A stretch of 64,000 nucleotides of DNA, from positions 1-64,000 of the forward strand of contig NZ_JAMBOH010000002.1 of NCBI RefSeq assembly GCF_023715505.1. Direction: 5' to 3'. Position 1 is the stretch's first letter. Each line of letters starts with the position of its first letter. Both the position numbers and the translations under genes were made by a program. Below the pieces are notes generated by a model. It was given only the letters and a program-made list of their open reading frames with translations. It made no database searches and was not told the DNA's origin. Source of the DNA: Neobacillus cucumis. GTDB taxonomy: Bacteria; Bacillota; Bacilli; Bacillales_B; DSM-18226. This document shows positions 490 through 27,393 of this stretch, in pieces.

Positions 490-801
490 TTACAACCATT
501 TATCTGCCCATTCCTCTAATGCTTTGAGCGATCGTCCGAGTTCTGTCCCTTTTTTGGTTAAAGAATATTCGGTCCGTACCGGACGGTCTGCAATGACATT
601 TCTTAACACAATTCCATTTTCCTCGAGCTCTTTCATCCGTTCATTTAGGACTCTTTTACTTAAGTCTGGTATAAAGGTATGGATTTCACTAAATCTTTTA
701 GGTTCCTCCATTAATGTGTGAATTATAAGTCCCACCCATTTTTTCCCTAATATATGATAGCACTCTTCTACTCTGCTGCATAATTTATTTGCTGTATCCA
801 T
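490..801 (-). CDS. HxlR-family redox/electrophile-sensing regulator
   Basis: A 103-residue winged-helix regulator of the HxlR family. The core KKWVGLIIHTL...PKRFSEI...LSKRVLNERMKELEENGIV is typical. Cys8 lies just before the helix-turn-helix core, where YodB and CatR (YvaP) of B. subtilis carry the redox-active Cys that senses quinones and diamide. The best guess is a CatR/YodB-like repressor. It is divergent from the broken MFS transporter starting at 1038, so that gene is its likely target. A paralogue lies at 15079-15402. Family call is firm; the quinone-sensing role is inferred from the Cys and the neighbourhood. Confidence 0.85.
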   Translation of the reverse strand: MDTANKLCSRVEECYHILGKKWVGLIIHTLMEEPKRFSEIHTFIPDLSKRVLNERMKELEENGIVLRNVIADRPVRTEYSLTKKGTELGRSLKALEEWADKWL

Positions 802-981: not shown

Positions 982-1037
982 GGTTACATAAAGTTACCAA
1001 GTTATTAATTTGATTAGCCGATATAAAGGAGGTTATT

Positions 1038-2170: not shown

Positions 2171-2188
2171 TATCTCGAAGTCGAGATA
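2171..2188. promoter_or_regulatory. MhqR-type operator upstream of glpX
   Basis: TATCTCGAAGTCGAGATA is an inverted repeat with 8 of 9 paired positions, 60 bases before the glpX start. It matches the operator I recall for MhqR of B. subtilis (tATCTcgaA-tTCgAGATa). The same box precedes quinone-detoxification genes later in this window (for example 23104-23121). It indicates that the fructose-bisphosphatase/transporter unit belongs to the same regulon. Confidence 0.65.
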
Positions 2189-2248
2189 ATTGAAATTAAA
2201 ATTAACAAAGGTAGAAATCATTTTTAACAATAATGGGAGGTAATAAAA

Positions 2249-3199
2249 ATGGATAGAAATTTATCAATGGAACTGGTTCGAGTAACAGAAGCTGCTGCTC
2301 TAGCGGCTGGACGGTGGATGGGCAGAGGTAAGAAAGAAGAAGCGGATGCAGCAGCTACACATGCTATGAGGGAAATGTTTAATTCCATTCAGATAAAAGG
2401 GACGGTTGTTATAGGGGAAGGTGAAATGGATGAAGCACCAATGTTGTTTATTGGCGAACAATTAGGAACATGTGATGGGACAGAAGTTGATATTGCAGTA
2501 GACCCATTAGAGGGAACCAATATTGTTGCTGCAGGTTCTTGGAATGCTCTTGCTATCATTGCTGTTGCAGAGAAAGGTAATTTATTGCATGCACCAGATA
2601 TGTATATGGAAAAAATTGCTGTGGGTCCTGAATCAGTAGGAAAAATTAATATTGAGGCACCGGTCATTGACAATTTAAAGGCTGTCGCAGCAGCAAAAAA
2701 TAAAAATATCGAAGATTTGGTTGTCGCTATCTTAGATCGGGAAAGACATGAAAAAATGATCCGGGAAATCCGCCAATCGGGAGCAAGAATTAAACTGATG
2801 CAAGATGGAGATGTTGCTGCAGCTATTAATACAGCATTTGATAATACGGGTGTTGATATTATGCTTGGTTCTGGAGGAGCCCCTGAGGGTGTAATAGCCG
2901 CAGTTGCACTTAAAAGTTTGGGTGGAGAATTTCAAGGCAAACTAATCCAACAAACGGAAGATGAAAAAATTAGGTTAAATAAAATGGGCATTACCGATTT
3001 TAATAAAGTTTTATTAATGGATGATATCGTAAAAGGGGATGATGCTTATTTTGTTGCAACAGGTGTAACAAATGGTGAGCTTTTAAGAGGAGTGCAATAT
3101 AAGGGGAACATTGGAACAACACATTCCGTGGTTATGCGTGCAAAAACGGGGACAGTTCGATTTATTGAAGGACAACATGGTTTGGATCAAAAACGATAA
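2249..3199 (+). CDS. glpX: Class II fructose-1,6-bisphosphatase (GlpX)
   Basis: A 316-residue enzyme that hydrolyses fructose-1,6-bisphosphate to fructose-6-phosphate. It shows the class II (GlpX) signature: [11 protein letters not shown] at about 55-65, the metal-binding VDPLEGTN at 84-91, a DRERH segment, and GSGGAPEGV near 210. The length fits the family (about 320). The start has a clear GGGAGG site. With pgi at the end of this block it closes the pentose phosphate route into a cycle by returning triose-derived FBP to hexose phosphate. The fructose-bisphosphate aldolase that would make the FBP is not here. It forms a probable two-gene unit with the symporter 33 bases downstream, behind an MhqR-type box. 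Confidence 0.93.
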
Positions 3200-3231
3200 T
3201 CTTTTTTGAATGAAAGAAATGAGGGATTGAA

Positions 3232-4650
3232 ATGAGTCAAAGTGCAAGCCAAAAAAAGATAGACCCTAATATTATCTCTTCAAATGTCAAGGTTAGACCA
3301 TTTGGTTTTCGAGATAAAATTGGCTATATGCTTGGTGATTTCGGGAACGACTTTTTCTTTATTTTAGTAAGTTCATATTTAATGGTTTATTATACAGATG
3401 TTTATGGAATCAGTGCAGCGTTTGTAGGTGTTCTCTTTTTAGCTGCACGTTTGTGGGATGCCATTGCAGATGTCACTTGGGGAAGGTTTATTGACACTAG
3501 AAAACCTAGTAAACATGGTAAATTTAAACCTTGGATTTTAAGAATGTCATTTCCTCTGGTTATTTCTGGAGTATTAATGTTCATTCATATCCCTGGAATG
3601 TCATACGGGTTCTATGAGGCATATGCTTTTGTCACTTACATCCTTTGGGGAACGTTATATAGTACTGTTAATATTCCATACGGTTCAATGGCCTCAGTCA
3701 TTACCATTGATCCAATTGAGCGAACATCTTTATCAACGTACAGGACGATGGGGGCGATGTTGGCAAGCTTAATGATTAATGCAGTAGGACCTTTACTTAT
3801 ATTTGTTGACAATAAGGCAAGTGCAAATGGATTTCTAATGGCAGCAGTCATATTTGGAATTCTTGCTTACGCGAGTTACCTTGCGAGTTATAAATTATCT
3901 ACTGAACGGATCGTGCTGGAGGAAAATGAAGGGCCAAAAGCAAAGCTAGGTCATACAATAAAAGGGCTATTAAAAAATAAACCATTAATTGCAATCCTTG
4001 GGGCATCACTAATATTCATGATGAGTACGATGCTGATAGGTTCCGTTAATGTGTATTTGTTTAAAGATTACTTTAACAATGCTGCAGCATTAAGTATTGT
4101 AGGAATTATTCAAACGGTCACAGTATTCATTGCTATTCCAATCGTAAAACCGTTAGTGAGTAAATTTGGTAAAAAGGAAACGACAACAGTAGGAATGCTG
4201 CTTGCAGCTGCTGTATATATTTTATTATTCTTTCTTCCCAATTTAACCGCGATCCAATATATTTCGTTAACAGCTATAGGGATGTTTGGATATGCCTTCT
4301 TTAATATAATGATATGGGCATTTGTTACAGATGTCATCGATTACCATGAATTTTTAACTGGATTAAGAGAAGATGGGACGGTTTATTCACTCTATTCTTT
4401 TGCCCGCAAAGTTGGTCAAGCAATTGCTGGTGGAATCAGCGGGTTTGCCATTACAGCCATAGGCTATCATTCAACTCGTGAAGTACAAACAGAGAGTACC
4501 CTGGAAGGAATCTATGCATTGGCTACCATCGTACCTGGTGTGATCTATCTATTGATTTTTTTGATATTAGTTTTTCTATATCCATTAACAAAACAACGAA
4601 TGAAACAGCTTACCATTGATTTAAAAGAGCAAAAAATCACTAGAAAATAG
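3232..4650 (+). CDS. GPH-family sugar:cation symporter
   Basis: A 472-residue membrane protein with about 12 hydrophobic segments. It resembles the glycoside-pentoside-hexuronide:cation family: the N-terminal GDFGNDFFFILVSSYLMVYYTD and ADVTWGRFIDTRK segments and the central DVIDYHEF segment. The substrate cannot be read from the sequence; a sugar or sugar acid is likely. It sits directly after glpX and before the oxidative pentose phosphate genes, so it may feed hexose or pentose into that pathway. A second GPH protein at 56633-58003 belongs to a different locus. Confidence 0.88.
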   Translation: MSQSASQKKIDPNIISSNVKVRPFGFRDKIGYMLGDFGNDFFFILVSSYLMVYYTDVYGISAAFVGVLFLAARLWDAIADVTWGRFIDTRKPSKHGKFKPWILRMSFPLVISGVLMFIHIPGMSYGFYEAYAFVTYILWGTLYSTVNIPYGSMASVITIDPIERTSLSTYRTMGAMLASLMINAVGPLLIFVDNKASANGFLMAAVIFGILAYASYLASYKLSTERIVLEENEGPKAKLGHTIKGLLKNKPLIAILGASLIFMMSTMLIGSVNVYLFKDYFNNAAALSIVGIIQTVTVFIAIPIVKPLVSKFGKKETTTVGMLLAAAVYILLFFLPNLTAIQYISLTAIGMFGYAFFNIMIWAFVTDVIDYHEFLTGLREDGTVYSLYSFARKVGQAIAGGISGFAITAIGYHSTREVQTESTLEGIYALATIVPGVIYLLIFLILVFLYPLTKQRMKQLTIDLKEQKITRK

Positions 4651-4727
4651 GTTGCACTTGGGTTTTTTATAAATTAAAAATATTTAAATTAAAACTATTT
4701 AACAAACGGTGGAGATTGATTTAGTAT

Positions 4728-4745
4728 TATCTCGAATTAGAGATA
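4728..4745. promoter_or_regulatory. MhqR-type operator (orphan)
   Basis: TATCTCGAATTAGAGATA, left half identical to the consensus and right half 8 of 9. It follows the GPH symporter and precedes only a decayed thiolase fragment, so it may be left over from a lost regulon member. Confidence 0.55.
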
Positions 4746-4970
4746 AATGAATTCAAGAATCTATGAATTAATAGTTTTAAAACTTATGTAAAATGCCTTT
4801 GGATTCAGAATAGAGAAAAGGGGGTGATAAAAATCTTCTGTTGTTTTATCAACAGGATTTACTTCTTGTTGATGTTTAATCAAGTCATTTATACTTCGTT
4901 TAATATGGTTCACCATAGCCTCACGTGTTTCGTCTGGAGTACCGTTACATGAAATAGGAGAAAACAATTT

Positions 4971-5051
4971 GGCATTACAACACTATGTGCTGGTGGCGGC
5001 CAAGGAATGGCGATTTTTCTAGAAAATGAAATAGATATAGAATTGTCTTGA
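4971..5051 (+). pseudogene. Acetyl-CoA acetyltransferase (thiolase) C-terminal remnant
   Basis: The frame beginning GITTLCAGGGQGMAIFLEN and ending in TGA at 5049-5051 matches the thiolase C-terminal active-site segment (Cys-x-Gly-Gly-Gly-x-Gly, which carries the second catalytic Cys). Nothing recognisable of the remaining roughly 365 residues is found upstream, so this is a deletion scar. Confidence 0.7.
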
Positions 5052-5128
5052 GCCTAATGGATTACTCCTTAGGTCTTTTTTATTGATTTTTAGGTAAAGT
5101 AATTGTTTTTGATAGAAGTGGTTTAAAA

Positions 5129-5146
5129 TATCTCGATTTCGAGATG
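5129..5146. promoter_or_regulatory. MhqR-type operator of the rpiA-pgi operon
   Basis: TATCTCGATTTCGAGATG, 16 of 18 against TATCTCGAATTCGAGATA. It lies six bases before the -35 of a strong sigma-A promoter. A repressor here could block polymerase for the whole pentose phosphate operon. Confidence 0.6.
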
Positions 5147-5152
5147 CTTTGC

Positions 5153-5181
5153 TTGACGTTACATGATTTAATAATTATTAT
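5153..5181 (+). promoter_or_regulatory. Sigma-A promoter for the rpiA-zwf-tkt-gnd-tal-pgi operon
   Basis: TTGACG (5153-5158), a spacer of exactly 17 bases and TATTAT (5176-5181). The -10 context equals that of the promoter at 953-981. It is the only strong promoter seen before rpiA. Confidence 0.7.
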
Positions 5182-5266
5182 GGTTACATAAAACAACTAA
5201 GGATATAAAAAATAACCTGGTTATGATAAATTATAATGAATTTAAAATAATTAAGGAGTGAAACAA

Positions 5267-5431
5267 ATGGTAGAAGTAACTGTAAAACTAAATTATAAAG
5301 GGAAAAACTATCAAACAAATGTAATAGTTCATAAAAATACACTCCAAAAACAAATTTCCATATCGCAATGGAGCAAATCAAGAAGCAATGGGCAAGTTAA
5401 CTATGGTGAAAATCTTCAGGTCTTTAAATGA
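5267..5431 (+). pseudogene. BA3454-type small stress protein, frameshifted
   Basis: The ATG at 5267 follows a TAAGGAG site. The frame reads MVEVTVKLNYKGKNYQTNV, which resembles the small BA3454-family stress-response proteins of Bacillus. The expected C-terminus (HIAMEQIKKQWAS, stop at 5398-5400) is present but in another frame, so one base change near 5340-5360 separates the halves. As read, the product is 54 residues with a foreign tail. It is the first gene after the operon promoter. Confidence 0.6.
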
Positions 5432-5449
5432 AAGGAGTAAAGGACTTGA

Positions 5450-6116
5450 ATGAAAAAAATTAGTCGGAGAAAAAGCCTTTGATTATGTGAAAGATGGAAT
5501 GGTCATTGGTCTTGGAACTGGTTCAACCGTATATTACACCATTACTAAACTTGGAGCATTAATCAAAGAAGGACTTTCTATAAAAGCAATTCCTTCCTCT
5601 AAACAAAAAGAGAAATTAGCCATAGAACTAGGAATTCCATTAGTTAATTTCAATGAAATAGAAGAAATTGATGTGGCGATAGATGGTGCAGATGAAGTAA
5701 ACCCAGAATTAATTCTCATTAAAGGTGGCGGTGGTGCTCTTTTAAGAGAGAAAATCATTGCGAAAACCGCTAACACTTTTATAGTGGTTGCTGACTCACA
5801 CAAAATGGTGGGGAAATTAGGAAGCTTTCCGCTTCCAGTGGAAGTAGTGCCATTTGGTTTTGAAATGACAAGAAAACATATTCAAAAGATTGGGGCATCT
5901 CCAAGGTTAAGGCAAAATAACGGGGTTCCTTACCAAACAGATAACGGGAATTATATTTTTGACTGTACCTTCCCAGATATCACTAATCCTGAAGATTTGG
6001 AAAGAGGGCTTAATCTTATACCTGGAGTTGTAGACAATGGCTTATTTGTTGGGATGGCCGACATCGTCATTACTTTGGATAAAAATAAAGAATTTAACGT
6101 AAATAAGCGAAAATAG
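5450..6116 (+). CDS. rpiA: Ribose-5-phosphate isomerase A, start broken by a 7-A run
   Basis: It interconverts ribulose-5-phosphate and ribose-5-phosphate. Family landmarks are GLGTGSTVYYTI, AIDGADEVNP and KGGGGALLREKI. The best start is ATG 5450, preceded by AAAGGA, but a run of seven A (5453-5459) puts it out of frame. With six A the protein would start MKKLVGEKAFDYVKDGM and match RpiA N-termini. As read, the only in-frame start is GTG 5487, which gives 209 residues, has no ribosome binding site and loses the first helix. This may be sequencing error, slippage or real damage. It is the second gene of the operon, 73 bases before zwf. Confidence 0.85.
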
Positions 6117-6188
6117 GTTGAAGCCTAACAAGGAAAAAATAATTAGGTAATGCACTTTAATCATTTCAGAAAATGAGGAGAATGAAAC

Positions 6189-7697
6189 ATGGAATCAATG
6201 TCTTTTGTTTTATTTGGAGCCACAGGAGACTTGGCTAAGAGAAAAATATACCCTGCCCTTTATAATTTATATATTGATCAGAAGCTGCCTCAACCCATAT
6301 CGATTATAGGGCTAGGTAGAGGTAATCTGTCACATGGTGATTTTCAAGAAAAAGTGAAGGAATCAATCTTAAATTTTTCACGTCGATTAGAACATGATGC
6401 GAATGAAATGGGAGAATTTCTTGATGCTTTCCGTTTCAGTACCTTAGATGTAAATAAACCAGATGATTACCAAAAACTGCTGCAGTTGGTTAAACAGAGA
6501 GAAGATGAACTGCAACTTACAGAAAATCGAATGTTTTATCTGTCGGTCTCTCCTGAGTTTTTCGATATTATTGCTTTAAATATAAAGAAAAGTGGACTCG
6601 GGGAAACGAATGGCTGGAAACGGTTGATTATCGAAAAACCATTTGGTCATGATCTAAAATCAGCCCGTGAGCTGAATGAAAAACTTAGCAGAGCATTTAA
6701 TGAAGAAGAGATTTATCGTATCGACCATTATCTAGGTAAGCCAATGGTTCAGAACCTCGAAGCTCTCGAATTTGCGAACCCGGTTCTCCAATCCATTTGG
6801 AATAAGGAGCATATTGCTAATGTTCAAATTACTGCCAGTGAAACGGTTGGAGTTGAACAAAGAGCCGGTTATTACGATCATTCCGGTGCTATTCGCGACA
6901 TGGTACAGAACCATATGCTGCAAGTGCTCATGATGACCGCGATGAACTTGCCTTACAAGATCAACGCAACAGAAATTCGAAATGAGAAACGGAAGGTTAT
7001 GGAAGCCCTTCGTCCGGTTAGAAAGGAGGATGTTCAATTTCACTTAGTCCGTGGACAGTACGCATCTGGCGAAATCAACGATCAATCGGTGCCTGGTTAT
7101 CGAATGGAACCCGGTGTGAATCCATCTTCTCAAACAGATACTTTTGTTTCTGCCCGTTTATGGATTGATAACCCATTTTGGAGTGGGGTCCCGTTCTATA
7201 TACGAACAGGCAAGAGAATGAAGGAAAAATCTACTCGTATCGTTATTGAATTTAAAAATACATTAAAGCTTTTATATAACAAAGATCAAAAGGTAGAGCC
7301 TAATCTACTTATTATCGAAATTAGTCCAAATGAAAATGTGACTTTGCAATTGAATGGAAAAAATCCGATGAACGGGAAAATCGAACCCGTCAAGATTAAT
7401 TTTTCTTGTGAGGACTCACAACGTAATGGTTCAGGAGTACCTGAAGCATATGAAAGACTCATTTATGATGCATTAATCGGCGATTCAACATTCTTTGCCC
7501 ATTGGAAAGAAGTTGAATTATCATGGGAATGGGTACAGCCAATCTTGTATGCCTTTGAGGAAAATCTATTGCCACTTCATGAATACCGTTCCGGTTCTTA
7601 TGGACCTGATGCTTCAAATTCATTGATAGCGGAAAATGGATTTAAATGGTGGCTAGATGAAAGGGAAGAAAATAAAGAGGCAGCATATCAGAAATAA
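6189..7697 (+). CDS. zwf: Glucose-6-phosphate 1-dehydrogenase
   Basis: A 502-residue cytosolic enzyme that oxidises glucose-6-phosphate to 6-phosphogluconolactone with NAD(P)+, the entry step of the oxidative pentose phosphate pathway. The dinucleotide motif [10 protein letters not shown] lies at 10-19 and the substrate-binding RIDHYLGKP at 177-185, followed by [15 protein letters not shown]. The usual RIDHYLGKE has Pro instead of Glu at its end, a mild deviation outside the catalytic His. The start has a GAGGAG site. No 6-phosphogluconolactonase gene follows, so the lactone must open spontaneously or through a distant gene. Confidence 0.95.
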
Positions 7698-7719
7698 GGA
7701 ATGTCTAGGAGGAAATGAA

Positions 7720-9714
7720 ATGTCACAAAATATTGAGAACTTAGCAGTAACAACCATTCGGACTTTATCCATTGATGCAGTCAACGCGGCAAATTCTGGC
7801 CATCCAGGTCTCCCAATGGGGGCAGCAACAATGACCTATGCTTTATGGGCGAACCATTTAAATCATAATCCTAAGAATCCAAAATGGTTTAACCGTGACC
7901 GATTTGTATTATCAGCCGGCCATGGGTCTAGCTTACTTTACAGCATGCTTCATTTATTTGGGTATGATGTTTCAATGGATGATTTAAAACAATTCCGAAA
8001 GTTAAATAGCAGAACGCCAGGACATCCCGAATTTGGTCATACCCCTGGTGTAGAAGCGACTACAGGTCCATTAGGACAAGGTATTGCTAATGCAGTGGGG
8101 ATGGCGATGGCGGAGGCACACCTAGCAGCCAAGTTTAATAAAGAAGAATTTCCTGTGATAGATCATTATACCTATGCATTAGTGGGGGACGGTGACCTTA
8201 TGGAAGGTGTCTCCTACGAAGCAATGTCAATGGCAGGGCATATGAAACTAGGGAAGCTCGTTGTGTTATATGATTCAAATGATATCTCCCTTGATGGTGA
8301 ATTGAACGTATCTTTCTCAGAAGATATCAAGAAAAGGGCAGAATCCGCTCACTGGCAATACTTAAGAGTTGAAGACGGCAACGATATTGAGGCGATTACT
8401 CATGCCATTCAAACTGCAAAAGAAAATACCGACCAGCCAAGTTTGATTGAGATCAGAACGATCATCGGTTATGGAAGTCCTAAAGTAGCAGGAACCAATA
8501 AAGCCCACGGTGCACCGCTTGGAGCTGAAGAGGGAAAAGCAACAAAACAAACCTACAATTGGCTTTATGAAGAAGATTTCTACGTACCAGAAGAGGTCAA
8601 AGTTCATTTTGAACATTTAAAGGATAAAGGAATCGATAAGGAACAAAGCTGGAATCAATTATTCGAGTCTTACCAAAAAGCGAATCCAGAGTTGGCAGAA
8701 CAGCTTTCCAATGCGATTTCTGGAAAAGTGCTTATTGATGTAAACGATATTTTAACATTTGATACCAGCAAATCTGTATCCACACGTGTAGCAAGCGGGG
8801 AAGCCATCAACCATTTTGTGAAATCCGTGCCATCTATTTTTGGAGGCAGCGCAGACCTTTCTCACTCTACGATGACTGAGATTAAAGGGGAACAAATTTA
8901 CGCGGTCGAATCTTACGGTGCACGTAATGTTTATTTCGGTGTCCGCGAGCATGCAATGGGTGCCGCAGCAAACGGGATGGCTTATCATGGCGGATTAAAG
9001 CCTTTTGTAAGTACATTCTTTGTGTTCAATGATTATCTTCGTCCTTCTATTCGCTTAGCGGCTTTATCAAAACTTCCGGTTATCTATGTGTTTACACACG
9101 ATTCCATTGCTGTTGGGGAAGATGGGCCAACACACGAGCCAGTGGAACATCTGGCTGCTCTTCGTGCGATCCCAGGCCTAACTGTGATTAGACCAACAGA
9201 TGCAAATGAAACGGCAAGTGCTTGGGCTTATGCTCTTCAACAAACAGAAGGACCAGTCGCTTTTGTTCTAAGCCGTCAAAATTTACCGGTATTTAACGAA
9301 ACAAAAGCAAATTTGGCAAATGTATCTATGGGTGCTTATGTTTTAGCAGAAACGAATTCCAACCCAGATGTGATCTTAATTGCGACAGGGTCTGAGGTCT
9401 CATTAGCTGCAAATGCAAAAAACGAACTGGAAAAAGAAAATATTTCTGTCCGTGTCGTTGCAATGCCAAGCTGGGAGCTATTTGAAAAGCAATCAGCAGA
9501 GTATAAAGAGGCTGTGCTCCCTTCTACAAAAACAAAGCGTGTCGCAATCGAAATGGGTATCGGATTAGGATGGGATCGCTTTGTTGGCTTTGAAGGAAAA
9601 GTATTATCAATTGAAACATTCGGTGCTTCTGGAGATGGTGGAGCGGTGATGAAGCATTTTGGTTTTACGACTGAGAATGTCGTTAATATCACGAAAAAGG
9701 TATTAAATAAATAA
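7720..9714 (+). CDS. tkt: Transketolase
   Basis: A 664-residue thiamine-diphosphate enzyme of the non-oxidative pentose phosphate branch. It shows [10 protein letters not shown] at the N-terminus, the TPP/Mg motif [13 protein letters not shown] near 155, and the [11 protein letters not shown] segment near 410 with the catalytic Glu. Start ATG 7720 is chosen for its AGGAGG site 7-8 bases upstream. It follows zwf by 22 bases and precedes gnd by 18 bases, so all are co-transcribed. Confidence 0.95.
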
Positions 9715-9732
9715 AATTTGGAGGAATTAATA

Positions 9733-10632
9733 ATGAAGGTAGGATTAATCGGCCTAGGAAAAATGGGGTTAAATCTAGGACAAAATCTCATCGAGCACAA
9801 TCAAGAAGTGGTAGCATTCGATGTAAACCCGAGTGCTGTTGAAGAAATGAAAAAATATGGAGCGGCAGGGGTTACTAGCTTTAAAGAACTCGTTGAATCC
9901 TTGGAACAGCCAAGAATCCTTTGGATTATGGTACCGCATGCGGTAGTTGATTCTGTTATTGGTGAAGTTTTACCGTTTTTAAATGAAGGAGATATTGTCA
10001 TTGAAGCGGGAAATTCCCATTACAAGGAGTCCATTCAACGTTATAACGAGTTACGGGAAGTGGGGATTCGTTTTATGGATGCCGGTACTTCTGGCGGTAT
10101 GGAAGGTGCTCGTCACGGGGCATGCTATATGGTTGGTGGAGACCCTGATGCTTGGGGAATTGTTGAACCTCTTTTCAGAGATACTGCTGTTGAAAATGGA
10201 TATCTCTATGCAGGGAAAGCAGGAAGCGGTCACTTCTTAAAGATGGTTCACAATGGAATCGAGTATGCCATGATGGCTGCCATCGGGGAAGGATTTGAAG
10301 TCCTTGAAAAAAGTGATTTCAATTACGATTATGAAAAAGTGGCAAGAGTTTGGAATAATGGTTCCGTTATCCGTTCATGGCTGATGGAATTAACGGAAAA
10401 TGCGTTTTCTAAGTACCCACATTTGGATCAAATTAAAGGAATTATGCATTCGTCCGGTGAAGGGAAATGGACGGTTGAAACGGCACTTGACCTTCAAACT
10501 GCTACACCAGTTATAGCCTTGTCATTATTGATGCGCTATCGTTCCTTAGAGAATGACACTTTTACAGGAAAAGTCGTAGCCGCACTTAGAAATGAATTTG
10601 GTGGACACGCTGTCGAGAAAACAAGCAAATAA
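9733..10632 (+). CDS. 6-phosphogluconate dehydrogenase, short (about 300-residue) decarboxylating type
   Basis: It oxidatively decarboxylates 6-phosphogluconate to ribulose-5-phosphate. The Rossmann motif is GLGKMG at 7-12, and the family segments [23 protein letters not shown] and [15 protein letters not shown] follow. At 299 residues it belongs to the short tetrameric group (YqeC-like), not the 470-residue GndA type. Strand beta-2 ends in an acidic residue (VVAFDVNPS), which usually favours NAD+ over NADP+; if so, only Zwf would give NADPH in this operon. Start ATG 9733 has a GGAGG site. Confidence 0.92.
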
Positions 10633-10661
10633 ATATACATTATGAATTGGAGGAAGAAATA

Positions 10662-11321
10662 ATGAAATTTTTTATCGACACTGCAAATATAGACGAGATT
10701 AAGAAAGCTTATAAAATCGGGGTACTATCCGGTGTTACTACAAACCCATCCTTGGTTGCTAAAGAGGGAGTAAAATTTGAAGATCGTATCGCAGAAATCC
10801 TAAATGCCGTTCCAGATGTAGAGTCTGTATCTGCTGAAGTAACTCCAAATGCTTTAACAGCAGAGCAAATGATTGCGGAAGCAAATGAACTGATCAAAAT
10901 TAATGGTGGAGAAAAAAATATTACGATTAAACTTCCAATGACTTTGGATGGTTTAGAGGCTTGCCGTTATCTTACTAAAAAAGGTGTAAAAACTAATGTT
11001 ACTCTAATTTTTACAGTAAACCAAGCTCTCTTGGCAGCACGTGCTGGGGCAACCTATGTATCTCCATTCTTAGGCCGGTTAGATGATATTAACGAAGATG
11101 GGGTACAACTGGTTTCAAAAATTGCGGAATTGATCCGTATTCAAAAATTAGATACTCAAATCATCGCCGCTTCGGTTCGTCATCCAGACCATGTAACTCG
11201 TGTGGCACTGGCTGGAGCACATATTGCGACCATTCCATTTAAGGTTATTGAGCAATTGTCAAAACACCCATTAACCGATCAAGGAATTGAGAAATTTGCA
11301 ACTGACTGGAAAAATGCATAA
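10662..11321 (+). CDS. tal: Transaldolase (small TalC/MipB type)
   Basis: A 219-residue transaldolase of the small subfamily. The Schiff-base lysine is Lys90 in ITIKLPMT, and TTNPSL near 27-32 is also typical. It transfers a dihydroxyacetone unit between sedoheptulose-7-phosphate and glyceraldehyde-3-phosphate, giving fructose-6-phosphate and erythrose-4-phosphate. Some small transaldolases act as fructose-6-phosphate aldolases; sequence alone does not separate them. ATG 10662 follows GGAGGA. Confidence 0.93.
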
Positions 11322-11327
11322 AAGGTT

Positions 11328-11363
11328 CAGAGCGTTAGTGTCCTATTCATAGGATACTTACGC
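11328..11363 (+). other. Intercistronic hairpin between tal and pgi
   Basis: A long stem, gagcg...tcctat / ataggatacttacgctc, with no T-run after it. It is more likely an mRNA stability or processing element than a terminator, because pgi follows 35 bases later with its own AGGAGC site. Confidence 0.45.
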
Positions 11364-11397
11364 TCGACCTAAATAAACATAATAGGAGCTAATATAA

Positions 11398-12735
11398 ATG
11401 TCAATTTCATTTGATTATACAAACGCACTACCATTCATGCAACAGACTGAAGTGGACAACCTTAGTGAATTTGTACAAGTTGCTCATCAGATGCTTCATA
11501 AAAAGAAAGGTCCAGGTTCTGATTATCTTGGTTGGGTGGACTTACCTTATGATTATGAAAAGGAAGAATTCACAAGAATTAAGGCCGCAGCTGATAGAAT
11601 CCGCCAAAATTCCGATGTTTTAATCGTGATTGGAATCGGGGGATCTTATCTTGGGGCAAGAGCCGCAATTGAAGCACTTTCACATACATTCCACAACCAA
11701 ATGGGAAAAGAAACGCAAGTTTATTTTGCGGGACAAAATATCAGTGCTACCTATATTACCCATTTATTGGATGTTATAAAAGACAAGGATATTTCCGTTA
11801 ATGTCATCTCTAAATCCGGTACAACCACGGAGCCAGCAATTGCCTTTCGCATTTTCCGAGACTATTTGGAGAAAAAGTATGGTAAAGAAGAAGCAAGAAA
11901 ACGTATCTTCGCCACAACGGACCGGGCAAAAGGTGCCTTAAAAACCCTTGCCGATGAAGAAGGTTTCGAAACATTCGTAATACCTGATGATGTAGGCGGG
12001 CGATATTCGGTATTAACAGCAGTAGGGTTATTGCCAATAGCGGTTGCAGGTCTCAATATTGATAAAATGATGGAAGGGGCTAAAGCGGCTGCAGACAAAT
12101 ATAATAATCCAGATTTGGCCTCAAACCAGAGCTATCAATACGCTGCCGTAAGAAACGCCCTTTATCGAAAAGGAAAATCAATTGAACTCCTTGTCAACTA
12201 TGAACCATCCCTTCATTATGTTTCAGAATGGTGGAAGCAGCTATTTGGTGAAAGTGAAGGGAAGGACCAAAAAGGACTATATCCAGCTTCAGTGGATTTT
12301 ACAACTGATCTGCATTCCATGGGTCAATATGTACAAGAAGGACGTCGTGATTTGATTGAAACCGTCATATCAGTAAAAGAACCTAAACTTGATATCACAA
12401 TTGAAGAAGAGGCTTCTAATCTTGATGGCTTGAATTATCTAGCAGGTAAAACGATGGACTTTGTCAATAAGAATGCCTTTCAAGGTACTGTATTAGCGCA
12501 TGTTGACGGAGGGGTTCCAAACCTGTCGGTGGAACTAGACAAATTAGACGAATATACATTTGGTGAAATGGTGTACTTCTTCGAGAAGGCGTGTGGAATC
12601 AGCGGATTGTTAATGGGAGTTAACCCATTCGATCAACCAGGAGTAGAAGCCTATAAAAAGAACATGTTTGCCTTACTTGGAAAGCCAGGATTCGAAGAAG
12701 AAAGAGAAGAATTACTAAAACGCATTTCTAAATAA
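11398..12735 (+). CDS. pgi: Glucose-6-phosphate isomerase
   Basis: A 445-residue enzyme interconverting fructose-6-phosphate and glucose-6-phosphate. The family signatures are [10 protein letters not shown] near 139 and GGRYSVL near 200. The length matches Bacillus Pgi (about 450). As the last gene of the operon it returns fructose-6-phosphate made by Tkt, Tal and GlpX to Zwf, which makes the pathway cyclic. A strong terminator follows. Confidence 0.95.
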
Positions 12736-14363: not shown

Positions 14364-15003
14364 TTAAAATTTTTTGGTGATTTCCTTTGCGGCTATAATT
14401 GCTTTCTCTTTGATTTCTTTTGCTTTTTCTGGGAATTGCACATGACCTTCGATAATAATTTCTTCAAAGTTTTGAATTCCGAAAAAGTCCATCATTACTT
14501 GAAGATAGCTATGCCCCATTTCCTTATTCGCTTCTGGTCCATTGGAGTAAACATCTCCGCGAGCTTGAATATGCAGGGCCTTTTTACCTTTTAAAAGACC
14601 CTGAGATCCTTTTTTGGAATACTTAAACGTTTTTCCTGATACCGCTCCAGCATCCAAGTAAGTCTTCATAATTGCTGGTACGGAAAAATTCCACATAGGT
14701 GTCACAAATATATATTTATCCGTTAAGATGAATTTCGCCCCAAGTTCAGCTAGTCGTCCAACTTTCGATCGTTCCGCGCTCGTTAATTGATCGTTCTCCT
14801 TTCTGAAGTTTTTCCCATCCACTAAAAACATCTGCATCCAGATAGGGTATGTCTGCTTGATATAAATCAAGGTGTACAACTTCATCCTGCGGGTGAATTT
14901 CTTTATATGAATCAATAAAAACCTTTCCTACTTCAAGGCTATAGGACCTTTCTGGATTAAGAGGATGTGCTGTGATATATAGAACATTTGCCAATAATCT
15001 CAT
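14364..15003 (-). pseudogene. azoR: FMN-dependent NADH-azoreductase (AzoR), frameshifted
   Basis: The N-terminal part (from 15003) reads [21 protein letters not shown]...[12 protein letters not shown], an AzoR flavodoxin-like start with the FMN-phosphate loop. The rest continues in another frame with [34 protein letters not shown] and KKALHIQARGDVYS to the stop at 14364. The switch lies near 14780. Together they would make about 210 residues, the normal size. AzoR enzymes reduce quinones and azo dyes by two electrons. It lies downstream of an HxlR gene, the arrangement expected for YodB-type control. Confidence 0.85.
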
Positions 15004-15078: not shown

Positions 15079-15402
15079 TTATTTCTCTTTCATCCAACTC
15101 GAAGCCCATTGACTAATGGGTCCAAGTATTTTTCCTAATTCGCTTCCTTTTTTAGTTAATAAATATTCCGTTCTAACTGGTCGCTCAGGAATAACATGAC
15201 GTAAAACAATCCCATGTTCTTCTAATTCTTTCATTCTTTCCGTCAGTACCCTTTTACTCAAATCAGGAATGAGTGAGTTAATTTCGCTAAAACGTTTTGG
15301 GCCGCTTGATAATACATATATGATTAATCCAGTCCATCTTTTTCCAATTAATTCGAAAGTTTTTTCAACCTCAGGACAAAGGTCTGCCTGTTCTTCCATC
15401 AT
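15079..15402 (-). CDS. HxlR-family redox-sensing regulator (YodB/CatR-like)
   Basis: A 107-residue HxlR winged-helix protein: GKRWTGLIIYVL, PKRFSEINSLIPDLSKRVLTERMKELEEHGIV and PVRTEYLLTKKG. A single N-terminal Cys (Cys8 in ADLCPEVEKTF) sits where YodB carries its quinone-reactive Cys. Start ATG 15402 is preferred over TTG 15423 because GAGGTG (15412-15417) is at correct distance from it. It points toward the azoreductase remnant, its likely target. It is close to the protein at 490-801, so the two are paralogues. Confidence 0.87.
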   Translation of the reverse strand: MMEEQADLCPEVEKTFELIGKRWTGLIIYVLSSGPKRFSEINSLIPDLSKRVLTERMKELEEHGIVLRHVIPERPVRTEYLLTKKGSELGKILGPISQWASSWMKEK

Positions 15403-15613
15403 AATAACATTCACCTCTTTCAAATATATTCAATTTTGTTCCTTGTATACTTATTGTAACTAAGTTTCAATTAATTACAAAGTAAAAATGCATAAACTAT
15501 TTATAAAAACGCCACTGTCTGTGAATTTGTCAAAAAGTCGCCATAAATGATTTTTATTAATTATCAGAAACAAAATAAAGTGAACACATTAAAAATGAAG
15601 AAACAATAAAACA

Positions 15614-15690: not shown

Positions 15691-16182
15691 TCAAGCAATT
15701 TTACTTTGAAAGGCAATTTTAACATCTTCATAACGGATTTCTAATAATTTTTCTAATAATTCTAGCTTTGTTTTTAATTCTTTGATTTCCTTTTCGCATA
15801 CTACATTTGTTTGTTTAATCGTATTTATTAATTTCTTCACTAATCGTTTGAAATTGGGAGACTCAATTAGTAAATACTCGATTAATTCGATGGCAGCCTG
15901 TTTTTCCTGTTCGTTCTTGACAGCAAAAATGCTTTGCTGAAACGGTTCGAATACTGTAATAGATTGAAAATCAACCGTAGTTCTTATTCCAAAGTACCTT
16001 TTTTCTGTTCCATAAAACTCATTTTCCCTTATACGAATTAAATCCAAACCGACCATAAATTCATAAAAAGAAGAGTTATTATCTGGATAATTTATATTTC
16101 CAAGTTCAATGTTTGAAATCTTATCTATAAATATTTCTTTTTCTATTTGTGTTTGAATTACTTTTGATTCTAATAAGTTCAT
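15691..16182 (-). CDS. Hypothetical protein, 163 residues
   Basis: Not recognised. It is a soluble, acidic protein with no signal peptide or membrane helix. The second half (about 95-155) is rich in Leu/Ile/Lys/Glu with a probable coiled coil (KEIKELKTKLELLEKLLEIRYEDVK). It stands alone with its own terminator. The only context is the neighbouring spore-hydrolase operon, divergent from it. Confidence 0.6.
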   Translation of the reverse strand: MNLLESKVIQTQIEKEIFIDKISNIELGNINYPDNNSSFYEFMVGLDLIRIRENEFYGTEKRYFGIRTTVDFQSITVFEPFQQSIFAVKNEQEKQAAIELIEYLLIESPNFKRLVKKLINTIKQTNVVCEKEIKELKTKLELLEKLLEIRYEDVKIAFQSKIA

Positions 16183-17699: not shown

Positions 17700-17733
17700 G
17701 TTTATGCCGAAAAGAGAGATGGAGTGATCATAC

Positions 17734-19937: not shown

Positions 19938-19955
19938 TATCTCGAATTTGAAATA
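19938..19955. promoter_or_regulatory. MhqR-type operator in front of the spx paralogue
   Basis: TATCTCGAATTTGAAATA: left half perfect, right half 7 of 9. It starts five bases after the -10, an ideal repressor position. Confidence 0.55.
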
Positions 19956-20052
19956 TATTAAATTGAGATATATGATTATGGGCATTAAAAGTCTAAGGTA
20001 TATAAGATTTTTTTTAAGAAGAATCAAATATAATTAGGGAGGGGTTTTATAA

Positions 20053-20448
20053 ATGGTAACCTTATTCTCGTCACCCAGTTGTGCTTCCTGTCGTAAGGCA
20101 AAAGCTTGGCTAGAAGAGTACCAAGTTGAATTTTCTGAAAGAAACGTTTTAACTGATTCCCTAACAATTGAAGAGATTAAGAATATTCTTCGACTAACTG
20201 AAGATGGAACGGATGAGATTATTTCAACAAAATCAAAGGCATTCCAGAAACTAAATATAAACATTGAATCTCTTCCACTTCAAGAATTTTGTAAGGTGCT
20301 TAGAGAAAACCCGGGACTATTACGAAGACCCATAATCATTGATGATAAACGATTACAAGTAGGTTTTAACGAAGAGGAGATTCGTCAGTTCTTGCCTCGG
20401 AGAATCCGCTCATTCCAATTTCATGAGGCCAAATCATCTATTAAATAA
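20053..20448 (+). CDS. Spx-family RNA-polymerase-binding redox regulator
   Basis: A 131-residue protein of the ArsC/Spx family, the exact Spx length. It has the redox switch CASC (Cys10, Cys13), the [10 protein letters not shown] segment with Arg92 that reads thiol state in Spx, and [19 protein letters not shown]. Spx binds the RNA polymerase alpha C-terminal domain and switches transcription during disulfide stress. It could be the main Spx or a second copy; the operator upstream suggests a copy dedicated to electrophile stress. Start has a GGGAGGGG site. Confidence 0.88.
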
Positions 20449-22662: not shown

Positions 22663-23085
22663 ATGGAAACAACATGTACTAATCTACCCTATCTTGTTTT
22701 AATGCAAACATCTAAAGCAGTACAGGATCGTATGAGATTGGAACTGAGCCAATATAACCTAAGCATTACTGAATTTTCAGTTTTGGAAGTTCTTTACAAT
22801 AAGGGGAAACAAACAATTCATGAAATTGGTAATAGCATCTTAATTTCAAGTGGCACGATGACTTATGTTATTGATAAGTTAGAACAAAGAGATTTATTAA
22901 ATCGTATTGCATGTCTTGAAGACCGCAGAGTAATTCACGTTGCCTTAACAGACGAGGGAAAAGAAATGATGGACAGTATCATGCCAAAATATCAAGAATT
23001 CGTTGATTACATGTTTAGTTCTTTAAATAATGAGGAGAAAGAAATATTTGTCAAACTGTTGAAAAAGATAAGTAAGAAAGTATAG
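22663..23085 (+). CDS. mhqR: MarR-family regulator, MhqR-like
   Basis: A 140-residue MarR winged-helix protein with the family core: ITEFSVLEVLYNKG, SSGTMTYVIDKLEQRDLLNRI and EDRRVIHVALTDEGKEMM. MhqR of B. subtilis represses dioxygenase, azoreductase and nitroreductase genes and is released by quinones. The genes next to it here (DoxX, dioxygenases, MhqD-like hydrolase, nitroreductase) are that regulon, and its operator type recurs across the window. The name rests on this context and on resemblance. Start has a GTAGGAGG site. Confidence 0.82.
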   Translation: METTCTNLPYLVLMQTSKAVQDRMRLELSQYNLSITEFSVLEVLYNKGKQTIHEIGNSILISSGTMTYVIDKLEQRDLLNRIACLEDRRVIHVALTDEGKEMMDSIMPKYQEFVDYMFSSLNNEEKEIFVKLLKKISKKV

Positions 23086-23103: not shown

Positions 23104-23121
23104 TATCTCGAAATCGAGATA
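23104..23121. promoter_or_regulatory. MhqR-type operator of the dioxygenase/DoxX unit
   Basis: TATCTCGAAATCGAGATA, 17 of 18 against the consensus and the best copy in the window. It lies between mhqR and doxX, about 10 bases before the AGGAGG site. Confidence 0.7.
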
Positions 23122-23144: not shown

Positions 23145-23543
23145 ATGATAAATCTTGGTTTATTAATAATTCGGTTAGTAGTTGGTGCTTTATTCATTGG
23201 TCACGGAGCTCAAAAATTGTTTGGGTGGTTTGGTGGATATGGTTTAAAAGGCACTGGAGGCTGGTTTGATTCCATCGGTATGAAACCAGGAATAACCATG
23301 GCTCTAATGGCAGGATTAGCAGAACTTGTTGGAGGAATTTTGTTTGCATTAGGTTTATTAACCCCACTTGCAGGAATTATTATTGCAGGAACGATGGTTA
23401 TGGCAATCGTTAAAGTCCACGCTCCCAACGGATTATGGGCAACGGCAAATGGATATGAATATAACCTTACGTTGCTGGCAATTGCCATTGCTATTGCTTT
23501 AATTGGCCCTGGTCAATATGCTGTAGATGCTTTTTTATTCTAA
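23145..23543 (+). CDS. mhqP: DoxX-family membrane protein (MhqP-like)
   Basis: A 132-residue protein with four hydrophobic helices, beginning LGLLIIRLVVGALFIGHGAQKLFGWFGGYG, the DoxX signature. MhqP, a DoxX protein, is encoded with MhqN and MhqO in B. subtilis. DoxX proteins are thought to assist membrane-linked redox or thiol chemistry; the exact role is not established. It is the first gene after the best MhqR-type box. Confidence 0.85.
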   Translation: MINLGLLIIRLVVGALFIGHGAQKLFGWFGGYGLKGTGGWFDSIGMKPGITMALMAGLAELVGGILFALGLLTPLAGIIIAGTMVMAIVKVHAPNGLWATANGYEYNLTLLAIAIAIALIGPGQYAVDAFLF

Positions 23544-23544
23544 T

Positions 23545-23562
23545 TACTTCAATTTAGAGATA
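23545..23562. promoter_or_regulatory. Weak MhqR-type half-site before the dioxygenase
   Basis: Right half TTTAGAGATA is good, left half about 5 of 9. It may be a second, weaker operator inside the operon. Confidence 0.3.
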
Positions 23563-23675
23563 CTTAAATTAAAAATAAATATTTTAAGTTTTTATTTTCG
23601 TCCTAGGAACAAAATAAGTAGTAACAAGTAGGTTTTTCCCAATTAGATTTTATATCTGAAAAGGAGTGTTGCAAA

Positions 23676-24614
23676 ATGAGTAAGAAAACAATGGGGATTC
23701 ACCATATCACAGCAATCGTCGGTCATCCACAAGAGAATGTAGACTTTTACGCAGGAGTTTTGGGGTTACGTTTGGTAAAGCAAACTGTCAATTTTGATGA
23801 TCCAGGTACTTATCACCTTTATTTCGGTAATGAAGGCGGAAAGCCAGGAACCATTATTACATTCTTTCCATGGGCTGGAGCTCATCAAGGAATTATTGGG
23901 GACGGTCAAGTAGGGGTTACTTCTTATGTAGTACCAAAAGGTGCGATGGAATTTTGGGAAAAAAGACTGGAAAAGTTCAATGTTTCTTTTACAAAAATGG
24001 AACGCTTTGAAGAGCAATATTTGGAATTTGATGATCCTCATGGGCTTCACCTGGAAATCGTGGAAAGAGAGGAAGGGGATATTAATACCTGGACTTTCGG
24101 CGATGTTACACCTGAAGTTGCTATAAAAGGTTTCGGCGGAGCAACTCTATTATCAACTCAGCCTAAAAAAACGGCTGAATTGTTAGAAAAAGTGATGGGA
24201 CTTGAATTAGTAGGTAATGAAGGGGATTTCACTCGTTATCGTTCGACTGCTGATATTGGAAATATTATCGACCTTAAATTAACTCCTATTGGGCGCGGGC
24301 AAATGGGTGTAGGAACAGTGCACCATATTGCCTGGAGGGCTATTGATGATCAAGATCAATTGGATTGGCAAAAATATGTCGCAGAGAATGGCTACGGAGT
24401 AACTCCTGTTCAGGATCGAAATTACTTCAATGCGATTTACTTCAGAGAACATGGAGAAATACTGTTTGAAATTGCAACTGACCCTCCAGGATTTGCTCAT
24501 GATGAATCACAAGCGACAATGGGAGAAAAATTGATGTTGCCATCACAGTATGAGCCTCACAGAGCAAAAATTGAACGAGCGTTATTACCGTTTGAAGTAA
24601 GAGAACTAGACTGA
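23676..24614 (+). CDS. mhqO: Ring-cleaving (glyoxalase-fold) dioxygenase, MhqO-like
   Basis: A 312-residue extradiol dioxygenase of the vicinal-oxygen-chelate fold, with two beta-alpha-beta-beta-beta repeats. Repeat 1 begins GIHHITAIVGHPQENVDFYAGVLGLRLVK and repeat 2 lies near 150-265. The metal ligands are probably the His in GIHHIT, the His in VGTVHHIAW and the Glu in GEILFEIATDPPGF. MhqO-type enzymes open hydroquinone-like rings. It shares architecture with the protein at 25288; the two are tandem paralogues. Start has an AAGGAGTG site. Confidence 0.9.
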   Translation: MSKKTMGIHHITAIVGHPQENVDFYAGVLGLRLVKQTVNFDDPGTYHLYFGNEGGKPGTIITFFPWAGAHQGIIGDGQVGVTSYVVPKGAMEFWEKRLEKFNVSFTKMERFEEQYLEFDDPHGLHLEIVEREEGDINTWTFGDVTPEVAIKGFGGATLLSTQPKKTAELLEKVMGLELVGNEGDFTRYRSTADIGNIIDLKLTPIGRGQMGVGTVHHIAWRAIDDQDQLDWQKYVAENGYGVTPVQDRNYFNAIYFREHGEILFEIATDPPGFAHDESQATMGEKLMLPSQYEPHRAKIERALLPFEVRELD

Positions 24615-24637
24615 TTTTTTGAAAAGGAATGATATCT

Positions 24638-25246
24638 TTGCTTTCAATTGATCCAGCTTCAATGTCAGAAAGAGAAAATTATAAATTTCTAATAGGAAGC
24701 ATTATACCCAGACCAATAGCATTAGTCACATCAATTTCAAAAGATGGTGTTTTGAATGGAGCGCCATTTAGTTATTTTAACATCGTGTCCTCCAATCCTC
24801 CGTTGATTTCATTAGCTATTCAACGCTCAGCAGGGGGACAAAAAGACACAGCAAGAAATATTACTGAGTCCAAACAATTTGTTGTTCATATAGTTGATGA
24901 ACATAACGTTGAAAAAATAAATAAAACAGCTGCAGGACTTCCTCCTAATCAAAGTGAGATAGAGTTAGCTGATTTAACTCCAGTAGATAGTGTAAAGATT
25001 TCAGTTCCTGGAGTTAAGGAAGCGAAAATCAGAATGGAATGTTTATTAGAACATTCCTTAGAATTGGGAGGCTTAGATTCGCCGGGGTGTGACCTAATGA
25101 TAGGAAGAGTGGTTCATTTTTATATCGAAAATGATATTTATGAAAATGGAAGAATTAATCCAAGGGGCTTAGCTGCCGTCAGCCGCTTAGCTGGGAATAA
25201 TTACGCAAAAATTGGTGAGGCATTTGAAATCGAAAGACCTAAATAA
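24638..25246 (+). CDS. Flavin reductase-like (split-barrel FMN-binding) protein
   Basis: A protein of about 202 residues of the flavin-reductase-like FMN-binding family: IGSIIPRPIALVTSISKDGVLNGAPFSYFNIVSSNPPLISLAIQ spans the FMN site. Start TTG 24638 is preferred because AAAAGGA is nine bases upstream; the in-frame ATG at 24629 directly abuts that site. It could supply reduced flavin or itself reduce electrophiles. It lies between the two dioxygenases in one operon. Confidence 0.83.
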   Translation: MLSIDPASMSERENYKFLIGSIIPRPIALVTSISKDGVLNGAPFSYFNIVSSNPPLISLAIQRSAGGQKDTARNITESKQFVVHIVDEHNVEKINKTAAGLPPNQSEIELADLTPVDSVKISVPGVKEAKIRMECLLEHSLELGGLDSPGCDLMIGRVVHFYIENDIYENGRINPRGLAAVSRLAGNNYAKIGEAFEIERPK

Positions 25247-25287
25247 ATCCTTGCAAAATCCCATTTTGATGAAATGGAGAGGCTAAA

Positions 25288-26834: not shown

Positions 26835-26867
26835 TAAAAAACTATATTTGGGAGGAGAAAGAGAATA

Positions 26868-27292
26868 ATGATAAAAAACGAAATAGGAGCATTTATTTTA
26901 CGCGTGACATTAGGAGCATTATTTTTAATACATGGAATTGTTAAGTTTCAAGGTGGAATTGAAAATATTGTAGGATGGTTTGATAGTATCGGCTTGCCTG
27001 GATTTATGGCATATGGAGTTGCTTCAATTGAAATTATTGGTGGTGTGGCATTAATTATTGGATTGGCGACACGATTCTTTTCTGCTTTACTTGCATTACT
27101 AATGATTGGGGCAACATTAAAAGTAAAACTATCTGTAGGCTTATTAGGAAATGGCCAGATGGCGGCTATGAGTTAGATTTAGCATTTTTAGCAATTGCAG
27201 TATATCTTGCAATCAATGGCAGCAAGCTATTATCTGTTAGTCAACTGATCCTTCATAAAGATTCAAATGATGACATCAAGAGAGCTGCTTAA
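26868..27292 (+). pseudogene. Second DoxX-family protein, frameshifted
   Basis: A DoxX-type start (FILRVTLGALFLIHGIVKFQGGIENIVGWFDSIG) continues to GLLGNGQ, after which the frame as read ends at 27176. The expected continuation GYELDLAFLAIAVYLAINGSKLL...DIKRAA, stop 27290-27292, is intact in another frame. One base change near 27155 separates them. If this is a sequencing error, the gene is a full 140-residue DoxX protein. Start has a GGGAGGAG site. Confidence 0.8.
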
Positions 27293-27393
27293 TAAATGAA
27301 TATAAATATTAAAAGAAAGAAATAATAGGGGTGTTTGAATTGGGATTCTTATCCAAACTATTTGGAAATTCATCTAATAAGGAGATAGAGAAA

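Follow-up and report, generated by a model that had tools for sequence, protein, structure and literature searches.

A stretch of 64,000 nucleotides from Neobacillus cucumis (contig NZ_JAMBOH010000002.1, positions 1 to 64,000; hereafter the window) encodes an accessory pentose phosphate operon, rpiA-zwf-tkt-gnd-tal-pgi, together with glpX and a sugar symporter gene, gph. Judged from sequence, this operon is probably a working part of a quinone and electrophile detoxification island, in which it would provide an electrophile-inducible supply of NAD(P)H. The same control sites were found at the sugar-burning genes and at the quinone genes, and recur in several related species, which suggests that fuel supply and detoxification may be switched on together.

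MhqR-type boxes at the accessory operon

The window was searched with the query TATCTCGANNTCGAGATA at up to 3 mismatches, and 100 dinucleotide shuffles of the window served as the control. As a result, six boxes were found (Table 1), compared with a shuffle mean of 0.19 and a largest value of 2. The boxes at 2171, 5129, and 23104, on which the sequence-only reading had built its proposal of MhqR-type control, were in place with 0, 1, and 0 mismatches, and three further boxes were located at 4728, 19938, and 32678. The window boxes are 9-9 bp inverted repeats of the TATCTCGAA-TTCGAGATA type near a promoter, a feature of the MhqR regulon, and they match the operator proven in Staphylococcus aureus (TATCTCGAA-aTCGAaATA), which was mutated and gel-shifted according to the available part of PMC6798810.

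Conservation was analyzed in a comparison set of 193 genomes of one family, whose genomes carry G-numbers and whose loci or stretches carry L-numbers. Among the matches listed, Zwf fell into two classes with 61-86% (at least 72 places) and 46-51% identity, and the window zwf belongs to the 61-86% class. The glpX matches listed comprised six copies at 88-95% and others at 70-75%; the glpX genes of L219, L222, and L227 belong to the latter group yet adjoin the operon. Their position led to their being classed as accessory, and L015 was treated likewise. By its sequence class, the window operon is an accessory paralogue.

A blind search of the 193 genomes for the box followed by TTGAC gave 10 matches in 10 genomes, whereas the reversed pattern gave 0. 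Nine matches preceded this operon, in five genomes already known to carry it and in four new ones (G136, G140, G144, and G149); the tenth (G048, L065) preceded open reading frames (ORFs) resembling short-chain dehydrogenases, as judged by eye from the translation. Within 1.5 kb upstream of zwf, the box (up to 3 mismatches) was present in 18 of the 82 accessory loci (counting the window), whereas 20 shuffles gave 0.25 on average and at most 1. Among the 32 housekeeping loci, one carried a box, and this one was not palindromic. The box also lay within 500 bp of glpX in 9/11 accessory but 0/21 housekeeping cases. The search for the same box before zwf operons of relatives, which the sequence-only reading had proposed as a check, thus found it conserved. 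The 82 accessory rows consist of the window, 33 of the 34 initial relative loci, and 48 further stretches, and include near-copies and several rows per genome, with the accessory zwf of G182 and G186 left out as identical in score and identity to that of G180. Of the housekeeping zwf, 31 were picked from genomes with an accessory copy first and then by high score, not at random, and the 32nd is L031 (53%). The glpX count covers 30 listed loci, the window, and L015, with L124 (52%) and L018 (a fragment) left out. The shuffles and the reversed pattern, together with the housekeeping copies of zwf and glpX as controls, led us to reject a chance origin of the boxes.

Detoxification genes accompanied the boxed operons. 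At least two such genes were found nearby in 10/18 boxed versus 6/64 unboxed loci (p 8e-5, with rows that are not phylogenetically independent). The islands of G021, G136, G144, and G149 hold the operon, spx, dioxygenase-superfamily, WrbA/azoreductase, and YodB-like genes, glpX, and gph within approximately 19-34 kb, with 7, 7, 3, and 8 boxes (up to 3 mismatches), respectively, in the stretches read. Island rpiA was seen in G136 and G149 only; mhqR2, doxX, and mhqD were present in three of the four islands, but not in G144. The arrangement in the window differs, as glpX-gph lies directly beside the operon. The operator sharing claimed in the sequence-only reading is therefore strongly supported by comparative genomics as far as the shared box and the quinone-detoxification neighborhood are concerned, whereas simple MhqR repression is presumed, the box being placed upstream of the -35 element.

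A palindrome beside the -10 element

Alignments of the leader and promoter regions showed CTTGACG-N17-TATTAT followed directly by the palindrome GGTTACATAAAGTAACC. A motif (box or palindrome) is carried by 31 of the 82 accessory loci, and the promoter core was in register in 29 of these 31, the exceptions being L145 and L029; in L002, L004, L005, and L010, the better palindrome copy is the second one, 19 bp further on. At up to 2 mismatches, the palindrome was found in 30/82 accessory zwf loci (shuffle mean 2.4, maximum 5) versus 0/32 housekeeping loci, and within 500 bp of glpX in 8/11 accessory versus 1/21 housekeeping cases. The window bears it at its operon only at 3 mismatches and is counted so in the motif-bearing totals; on this basis, the palindrome was present in all 18 boxed loci versus 13/64 unboxed loci. 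A blind search for the palindrome returned 17 distinct sites, comprising 10 before rpiA or zwf, 3 beside DUF24 genes, and 4 without assignment. It also occurs between YodB-like genes and their divergent neighbors, including glpX in L211-L213 and L216, and a near-intact copy, GGTTACATAAAGTTACC, lies beside the window's own YodB-like gene. This element, which is wider and more widely kept than the MhqR box, was absent from the sequence-only reading. It reads as the operator of a YodB-like DUF24 regulator, placed beside the -10 element.

Several promoters lack an MhqR box upstream of -35 and carry in its place a CACAA direct repeat resembling TTCACAAAWTAGACACAAA (approximately 929-951 in the window, and L020, L021, L026, L027, L030, L032, and L033). 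In G169 (L090/L171), rpiA with box and palindrome is followed by spx and mhqR2, and no zwf was found in the stretch read. Of the 30 motif-bearing relatives, 18 have a leader ORF of approximately 45-55 codons between the promoter and rpiA/zwf; in 13 rows of equal length, its differences fall mostly at the third position of the codon (1508, against 925 and 854 at the other two).

Predicted reductant supply and rival explanations

Protein calls are NCBIfam model matches above cut-offs unless stated otherwise, and on this basis the gene identities assigned earlier, glpX-transporter and rpiA-zwf-tkt-gnd-tal-pgi, hold. The possibility raised there that the 6-phosphogluconate dehydrogenase is NAD-linked agrees with its match to the NAD-type model TIGR00872 (478 bits) and with an Asp after beta-2 in the alignment, which we take to be a sign of cofactor preference. 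Zwf keeps an Arg at the position aligned to the NADP-contacting Arg of Leuconostoc mesenteroides glucose-6-phosphate dehydrogenase, a residue that presumably binds the NADP 2'-phosphate. With this Arg, expected for NADP, and an NAD-type Gnd, each turn would yield one NADPH from Zwf and one NADH from Gnd. The tal product matched TIGR00875, a model named fructose-6-phosphate aldolase, and we assume this TalC-type protein to be a transaldolase. With that assumption, and with the 5' end of rpiA doubtful, the set for a cyclic pentose phosphate pathway (zwf, gnd, rpi, tkt, tal, pgi, and fructose-bisphosphatase) is encoded in full.

The proposed scheme builds on the genes, boxes, promoter layout, conservation, island synteny, and two regulator classes, and predicts from them the binder of each site, induction by quinones, the direction of control, the cofactors used, and cyclic flux. 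Without stress, two repressors would hold the operon low: the TATCTCGA..TCGAGATA boxes would be occupied by a MarR regulator of the MhqR type, and the palindrome beside the -10 element by a YodB-like DUF24 regulator. Quinones would release both repressors, so that the operon and the reductases would rise together. Zwf would then oxidize glucose 6-phosphate to yield NADPH, the NAD-type Gnd would yield NADH, and this NAD(P)H would feed the reductases of the island, which act on quinones, azo and nitro compounds, and flavins. Pentose phosphate would be converted back to glucose 6-phosphate by Tkt, Tal, GlpX, and Pgi, allowing further rounds of oxidation.

A formaldehyde operon was considered when hxlAB appeared beside relatives. 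In that explanation, the operon would serve formaldehyde oxidation in a dissimilatory ribulose monophosphate cycle with HPS/PHI made elsewhere, the DUF24 protein would act like HxlR, and the proximity to mhq genes would be secondary. A sister Zwf clade is indeed tied to hxlA, which was matched in 29/82 accessory loci (26 with hxlB, 23 with true HxlR; model matches TIGR03128 and TIGR03127 confirmed on L157 only), and a close HPS (at least 71%) exists somewhere in 15 of the 27 genomes searched. However, none of these 29 loci carries a box or palindrome, and hxlA is absent from the surroundings of all 31 motif-bearing loci, while 22/82 have neither motif nor hxlA; hxlA was likewise not found in the 64 kb window. 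A quick Zwf tree, with Shimodaira-Hasegawa-like approximate likelihood ratio test (SH-aLRT) support only, was built from 5 outgroup rows and 80 accessory rows, L019 and L034 having dropped out of the 82 because of their length. The 29 hxlA-linked rows fell together in a clade of 34 (SH-aLRT 87). A second clade, of 45 rows (SH-aLRT 90), contained 28 of the 30 motif rows, and the remaining two, L023 and L029, lay outside it on long branches. YodB-like genes were found at 17 of the 31 motif-bearing loci in the stretch searched, one of which (L018) also has true HxlR, but at none of the hxlA-linked loci. No close HPS was detected in 12 of the 27 genomes, among them the boxed G011, G012, G016, G024, G140, G160, and G166, although these are drafts, with G166 a metagenome-assembled genome, and absence is not proof; among the 27, G169 has only rpiA in an mhq cluster and no quinone-type zwf operon. 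Because hxlA is missing from motif-bearing loci and 12/27 genomes have no close HPS, the quinone-type operon seems independent of the formaldehyde cycle. The formaldehyde operon was rejected for the motif-bearing class, and a role in formaldehyde oxidation with distant HPS/PHI is judged highly improbable.

That the operon serves growth rather than defense appears quite improbable as well. The GPH symporter would import a plant-derived glycoside or uronide, the pentose phosphate enzymes would burn it, and the boxes would sense a co-occurring phenolic. The symporter gene adjoins glpX in four islands and in the window, and pirin and dioxygenase-superfamily genes would suit aromatic substrates, but no fitting glycosidase was recognized among the scanned island ORFs of the window, whose GH18 genes carry LysM domains, and spx, WrbA, azoreductase, and nitroreductase are stress-type genes. 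Moreover, 17/18 boxed loci have no GPH gene in the interval of -9 to +10.5 kb around zwf, with the qualification that some stretches were shorter and that GPH lies further off in islands. Unlikely, too, is an explanation in which a different MarR protein (from the MhqR2 class or another paralogue) acts on the boxes, with a ligand of its own and a response to something other than quinones. The best PDB match of the window MarR protein, 9qdr, is S. aureus MhqR, for which the available part of PMC12893000 gives the pocket residues F11, F39, E43, and H111 and the DNA-contact residues S65 and S66. The two proteins share 39% identity over 111 residues; H111 is replaced by Tyr and S65/S66 by Gly/Thr, whereas the F39 and E43 equivalents are kept, and F11 falls outside the alignment. 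In addition, a further protein was found in 14 of 15 relatives, with 58-61% identity to the MhqR-class regulator of L043. The L043 regulator has 48% identity to S. aureus MhqR and was the reference for the relatives' proteins; either these proteins or MhqR2 may bind the operon boxes. On the other side, mhqR2 is flanked by boxes, and in the same genomes boxes also stand ahead of genes of the known MhqR type.

Several observations weigh against an electrophile-inducible operon under MhqR-type and YodB-type control, beginning with the MarR protein itself, which by these comparisons is a diverged MhqR paralogue changed at ligand and DNA-contact positions. The box of the zwf operon lies 6 bp upstream of -35 rather than over the start site, which is predicted, and a position just upstream of -35 is found in 15/18 boxed accessory loci, the window included; among the three exceptions, L020 shows its glpX box, while L027 and L033 have the box on the downstream side of the palindrome. 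The S. aureus mhqRED operator, by contrast, spans -6 to +12 over the transcription start, according to the available part of PMC6798810, so that simple MhqR repression here is conjectural. The left half of many of the operon boxes is decayed (TATCTTTA). At the operon of the window itself, the palindrome is degenerate, and it is not enriched genome-wide (18 matches versus 40 for the reversed pattern), so that only its placement is informative. Its binder is likewise only predicted, because the conserved site, GTTAC[5]GTAAC, differs in spacing from the YodB operator TACT[7]AGTA given in the available part of PMC8063818. No YodB-like gene was found at 14/31 motif-bearing loci in the stretch searched, and the presence of any YodB-like/HxlR gene, with the classes pooled, was not associated with the palindrome (17/31 versus 28/51, p 1), for which reason the YodB-like and true HxlR classes had to be separated. 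Seventeen of the 45 rows of the quinone-type clade, including the nearest relative L001, lack both motifs within 1.5 kb upstream of zwf (225 bp for L142). As to the enzymes, pgl, rpe, and fba, which the sequence-only reading had reported absent, were not among the 55 of 65 window ORFs of at least 100 amino acids that were scanned, the other 10 being of at most 174 amino acids; the host's own copies of pgl, rpe, and the aldolase could serve the operon. Finally, rpiA appears frameshifted at its 5' end: a one-base difference from L001 makes GTG 5487 the first usable start, and the frameshift of rpiA and the leader ORF may reflect decay or a sequencing error.

Known systems and surrounding genes

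In mammals, the electrophile sensor Nrf2 couples the quinone reductase NQO1 with G6PD, TKT, and TALDO1. It is eukaryotic and its sensor is unrelated, so the analogy is one of logic only. SoxRS of Escherichia coli responds to redox-cycling quinones through a different regulator and is known to govern zwf alone, not a full accessory pentose phosphate operon. The SoxRS regulon (zwf, sodA, and others) has a stress-inducible zwf, according to the available part of PMC8784731, and in this it resembles what is predicted for the window. The MhqR regulon of Bacillus subtilis and S. aureus (mhqRED, mhqNOP, mhqA, and azoR2), as described in the available parts of PMC6798810 and PMC12893000, is alike in its operator, its dioxygenase/glyoxalase, MhqD-like, and azoreductase-type genes, and its MarR regulator, but differs in that the window zwf box is upstream of -35 and paired with a second palindrome; the word "pentose" is absent from the main text of both papers. 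Both mhqR and zwf matter for B. subtilis L-forms, with no operator linking them in the available part of PMC4510147. The HxlR-hxlAB-zwf-gnd formaldehyde (ribulose monophosphate) clusters of Bacillaceae and their kin share with the window operon the accessory Zwf family, the NAD-type Gnd, and a DUF24 regulator; they possess hxlAB and true HxlR without MhqR box or palindrome, whereas the window operon has no hxlAB. The YodB/QsrR group of DUF24 regulators is represented by two YodB-like proteins in the window, with the N-terminal Cys kept in paralogue b. Among the open-licence papers listed by literature searches, none was found that connects MhqR with a pentose phosphate operon. The SoxRS-zwf and Nrf2-pentose phosphate couplings appear to be the nearest in logic.

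If the proposal is correct, the window offers a Gram-positive case of the SoxRS/Nrf2 design, in which one signal would govern detoxification and fuel with a whole dedicated pentose phosphate set and two sensors, and the predicted MhqR-type regulon would extend to central carbon metabolism. It would also provide a testable case of a metabolic module split into formaldehyde-linked and quinone-linked sister clades. We give roughly even chances to the broader idea that Bacillota evolved an Nrf2-like program, in which an accessory pentose phosphate operon, sister to the HxlR-run formaldehyde module and without hxlAB (lost or never had), came under MhqR-type and YodB-type quinone-sensing repressors on one promoter, in an island of approximately 20-35 kb coupling quinone removal to NAD(P)H supply.

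Table 1. Features of the window discussed in the text, in order of position
Feature	Position (nt)	Strand	Remarks
YodB-like DUF24/HxlR-family regulator, paralogue a	490..801	-	best PDB match B. subtilis YodB 5hs7, 96 bits; PF01638
GGTTACATAAAGTTACC palindrome	982..998	+	abuts TATTAT 976-981; TTGACA 953-958
MhqR-type box before glpX	2171..2188	+	0 mismatches; 60 bp ahead of glpX
glpX, class II fructose-bisphosphatase, accessory copy	2249..3199	+	TIGR00330 457 bits; class from glpX survey
gph, GPH-family sugar:cation symporter	3232..4650	+	TIGR00792 361 bits; adjoins glpX in 4/4 related islands
Extra MhqR-type box	4728..4745	+	1 mismatch; between gph and rpiA promoter; absent from the sequence-only list
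MhqR-type box at the operon	5129..5146	+	1 mismatch; upstream of -35 TTGACG
Sigma-A-type promoter TTGACG-N17-TATTAT	5153..5181	+	-35 5153-5158; -10 TATTAT 5176-5181
Degenerate GGTTACNNNNNGTAACC palindrome copy	5182..5198	+	3 mismatches; second degenerate copy 5201-5217
Small leader ORF	5258..5431	+	open for 57 codons; frame changed vs relatives
rpiA	5487..6116	+	NF001924 275 bits (frame 5454-6113); N-terminal stretch out of frame vs L001
zwf, accessory class	6189..7697	+	TIGR00871 573 bits; two-class survey
tkt, transketolase	7657..9714	+	TIGR00232 914 bits; ORF start overlaps zwf, true start may be further in
gnd, NAD-type decarboxylating 6-phosphogluconate dehydrogenase	9718..10632	+	TIGR00872 478 bits; alignment
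tal, TalC/Fsa-family transaldolase or fructose-6-phosphate aldolase	10647..11321	+	TIGR00875 277 bits
pgi	11398..12735	+	NF010697 742 bits
Azoreductase-like ORF, N-terminally shortened	14364..14915	-	NF010075 141 bits, below cut-off 188; model positions 64-208
YodB-like regulator, paralogue b	15079..15423	-	YodB 5hs7 102 bits; N-terminal Cys aligned to that of YodB
c7, 163-amino-acid protein	15691..16182	-	no Pfam match; beside operon in 14/34 initial relative loci
MhqR-type box and spx	19938..20448	+	box 19938-19955, 2 mismatches; spx 20053-20448
MhqR-like MarR regulator (MhqR2 class, our own label)	22663..23085	+	best PDB match 9qdr, 78 bits
MhqR-type box	23104..23121	+	0 mismatches; between MarR gene and doxX 23145
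doxX, 2 glyoxalase/dioxygenase-superfamily ORFs, flavin reductase, mhqD-like esterase, doxX, WrbA-type quinone oxidoreductase	23145..28005	+	esterase 202 bits, below model cut-off 325
Second WrbA	30605-31264	+	
MhqR-type box at nitroreductase ORF start (32682)	32678-32695	+	3 mismatches
Nitroreductase-family ORF with box	32678-33335	+	box at ORF start

Around the operon, a broken MFS-like transporter gene (approximately 1038-2120, family judged by eye) with several frame changes lies between the palindrome at 982-998 and glpX, and IS1182-type transposase remnants follow pgi at 12912-14095. Two LysM-GH18 genes flank a CdaS-type diadenylate cyclase gene (16374-19705) and are kept in the islands of relatives. 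A spore-germination island, considered in view of the kept cdaS and LysM-GH18 genes, was set aside, the promoter being sigma-A-like and boxed.

The c7 family comprises 94 listed homologues, the window protein included; c7 is kept near the operon and the DUF24 gene. Its homologues come mostly from Neobacillus and Bacillus, and where named they are nearly always called "hypothetical protein". The window c7 protein was found on a contig of 517,911 bp, and an Alp7A-type actin-like partition gene with the next ORF lies at 41501-43406; the window may therefore be part of a large plasmid. Plasmid-borne copies were sought by megablast against plasmids, which returned fragments in 3 records (75-77%, at most 9% of the query). 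Further along, an ORF weakly matching the Wadjet JetD C-terminal domain precedes a 506-amino-acid ORF without a Pfam match (61126-63701), and the region 53089-58003 encodes an AraC-type regulator, an 800-amino-acid ORF without a Pfam match, and a second MFS_2 sugar transporter.

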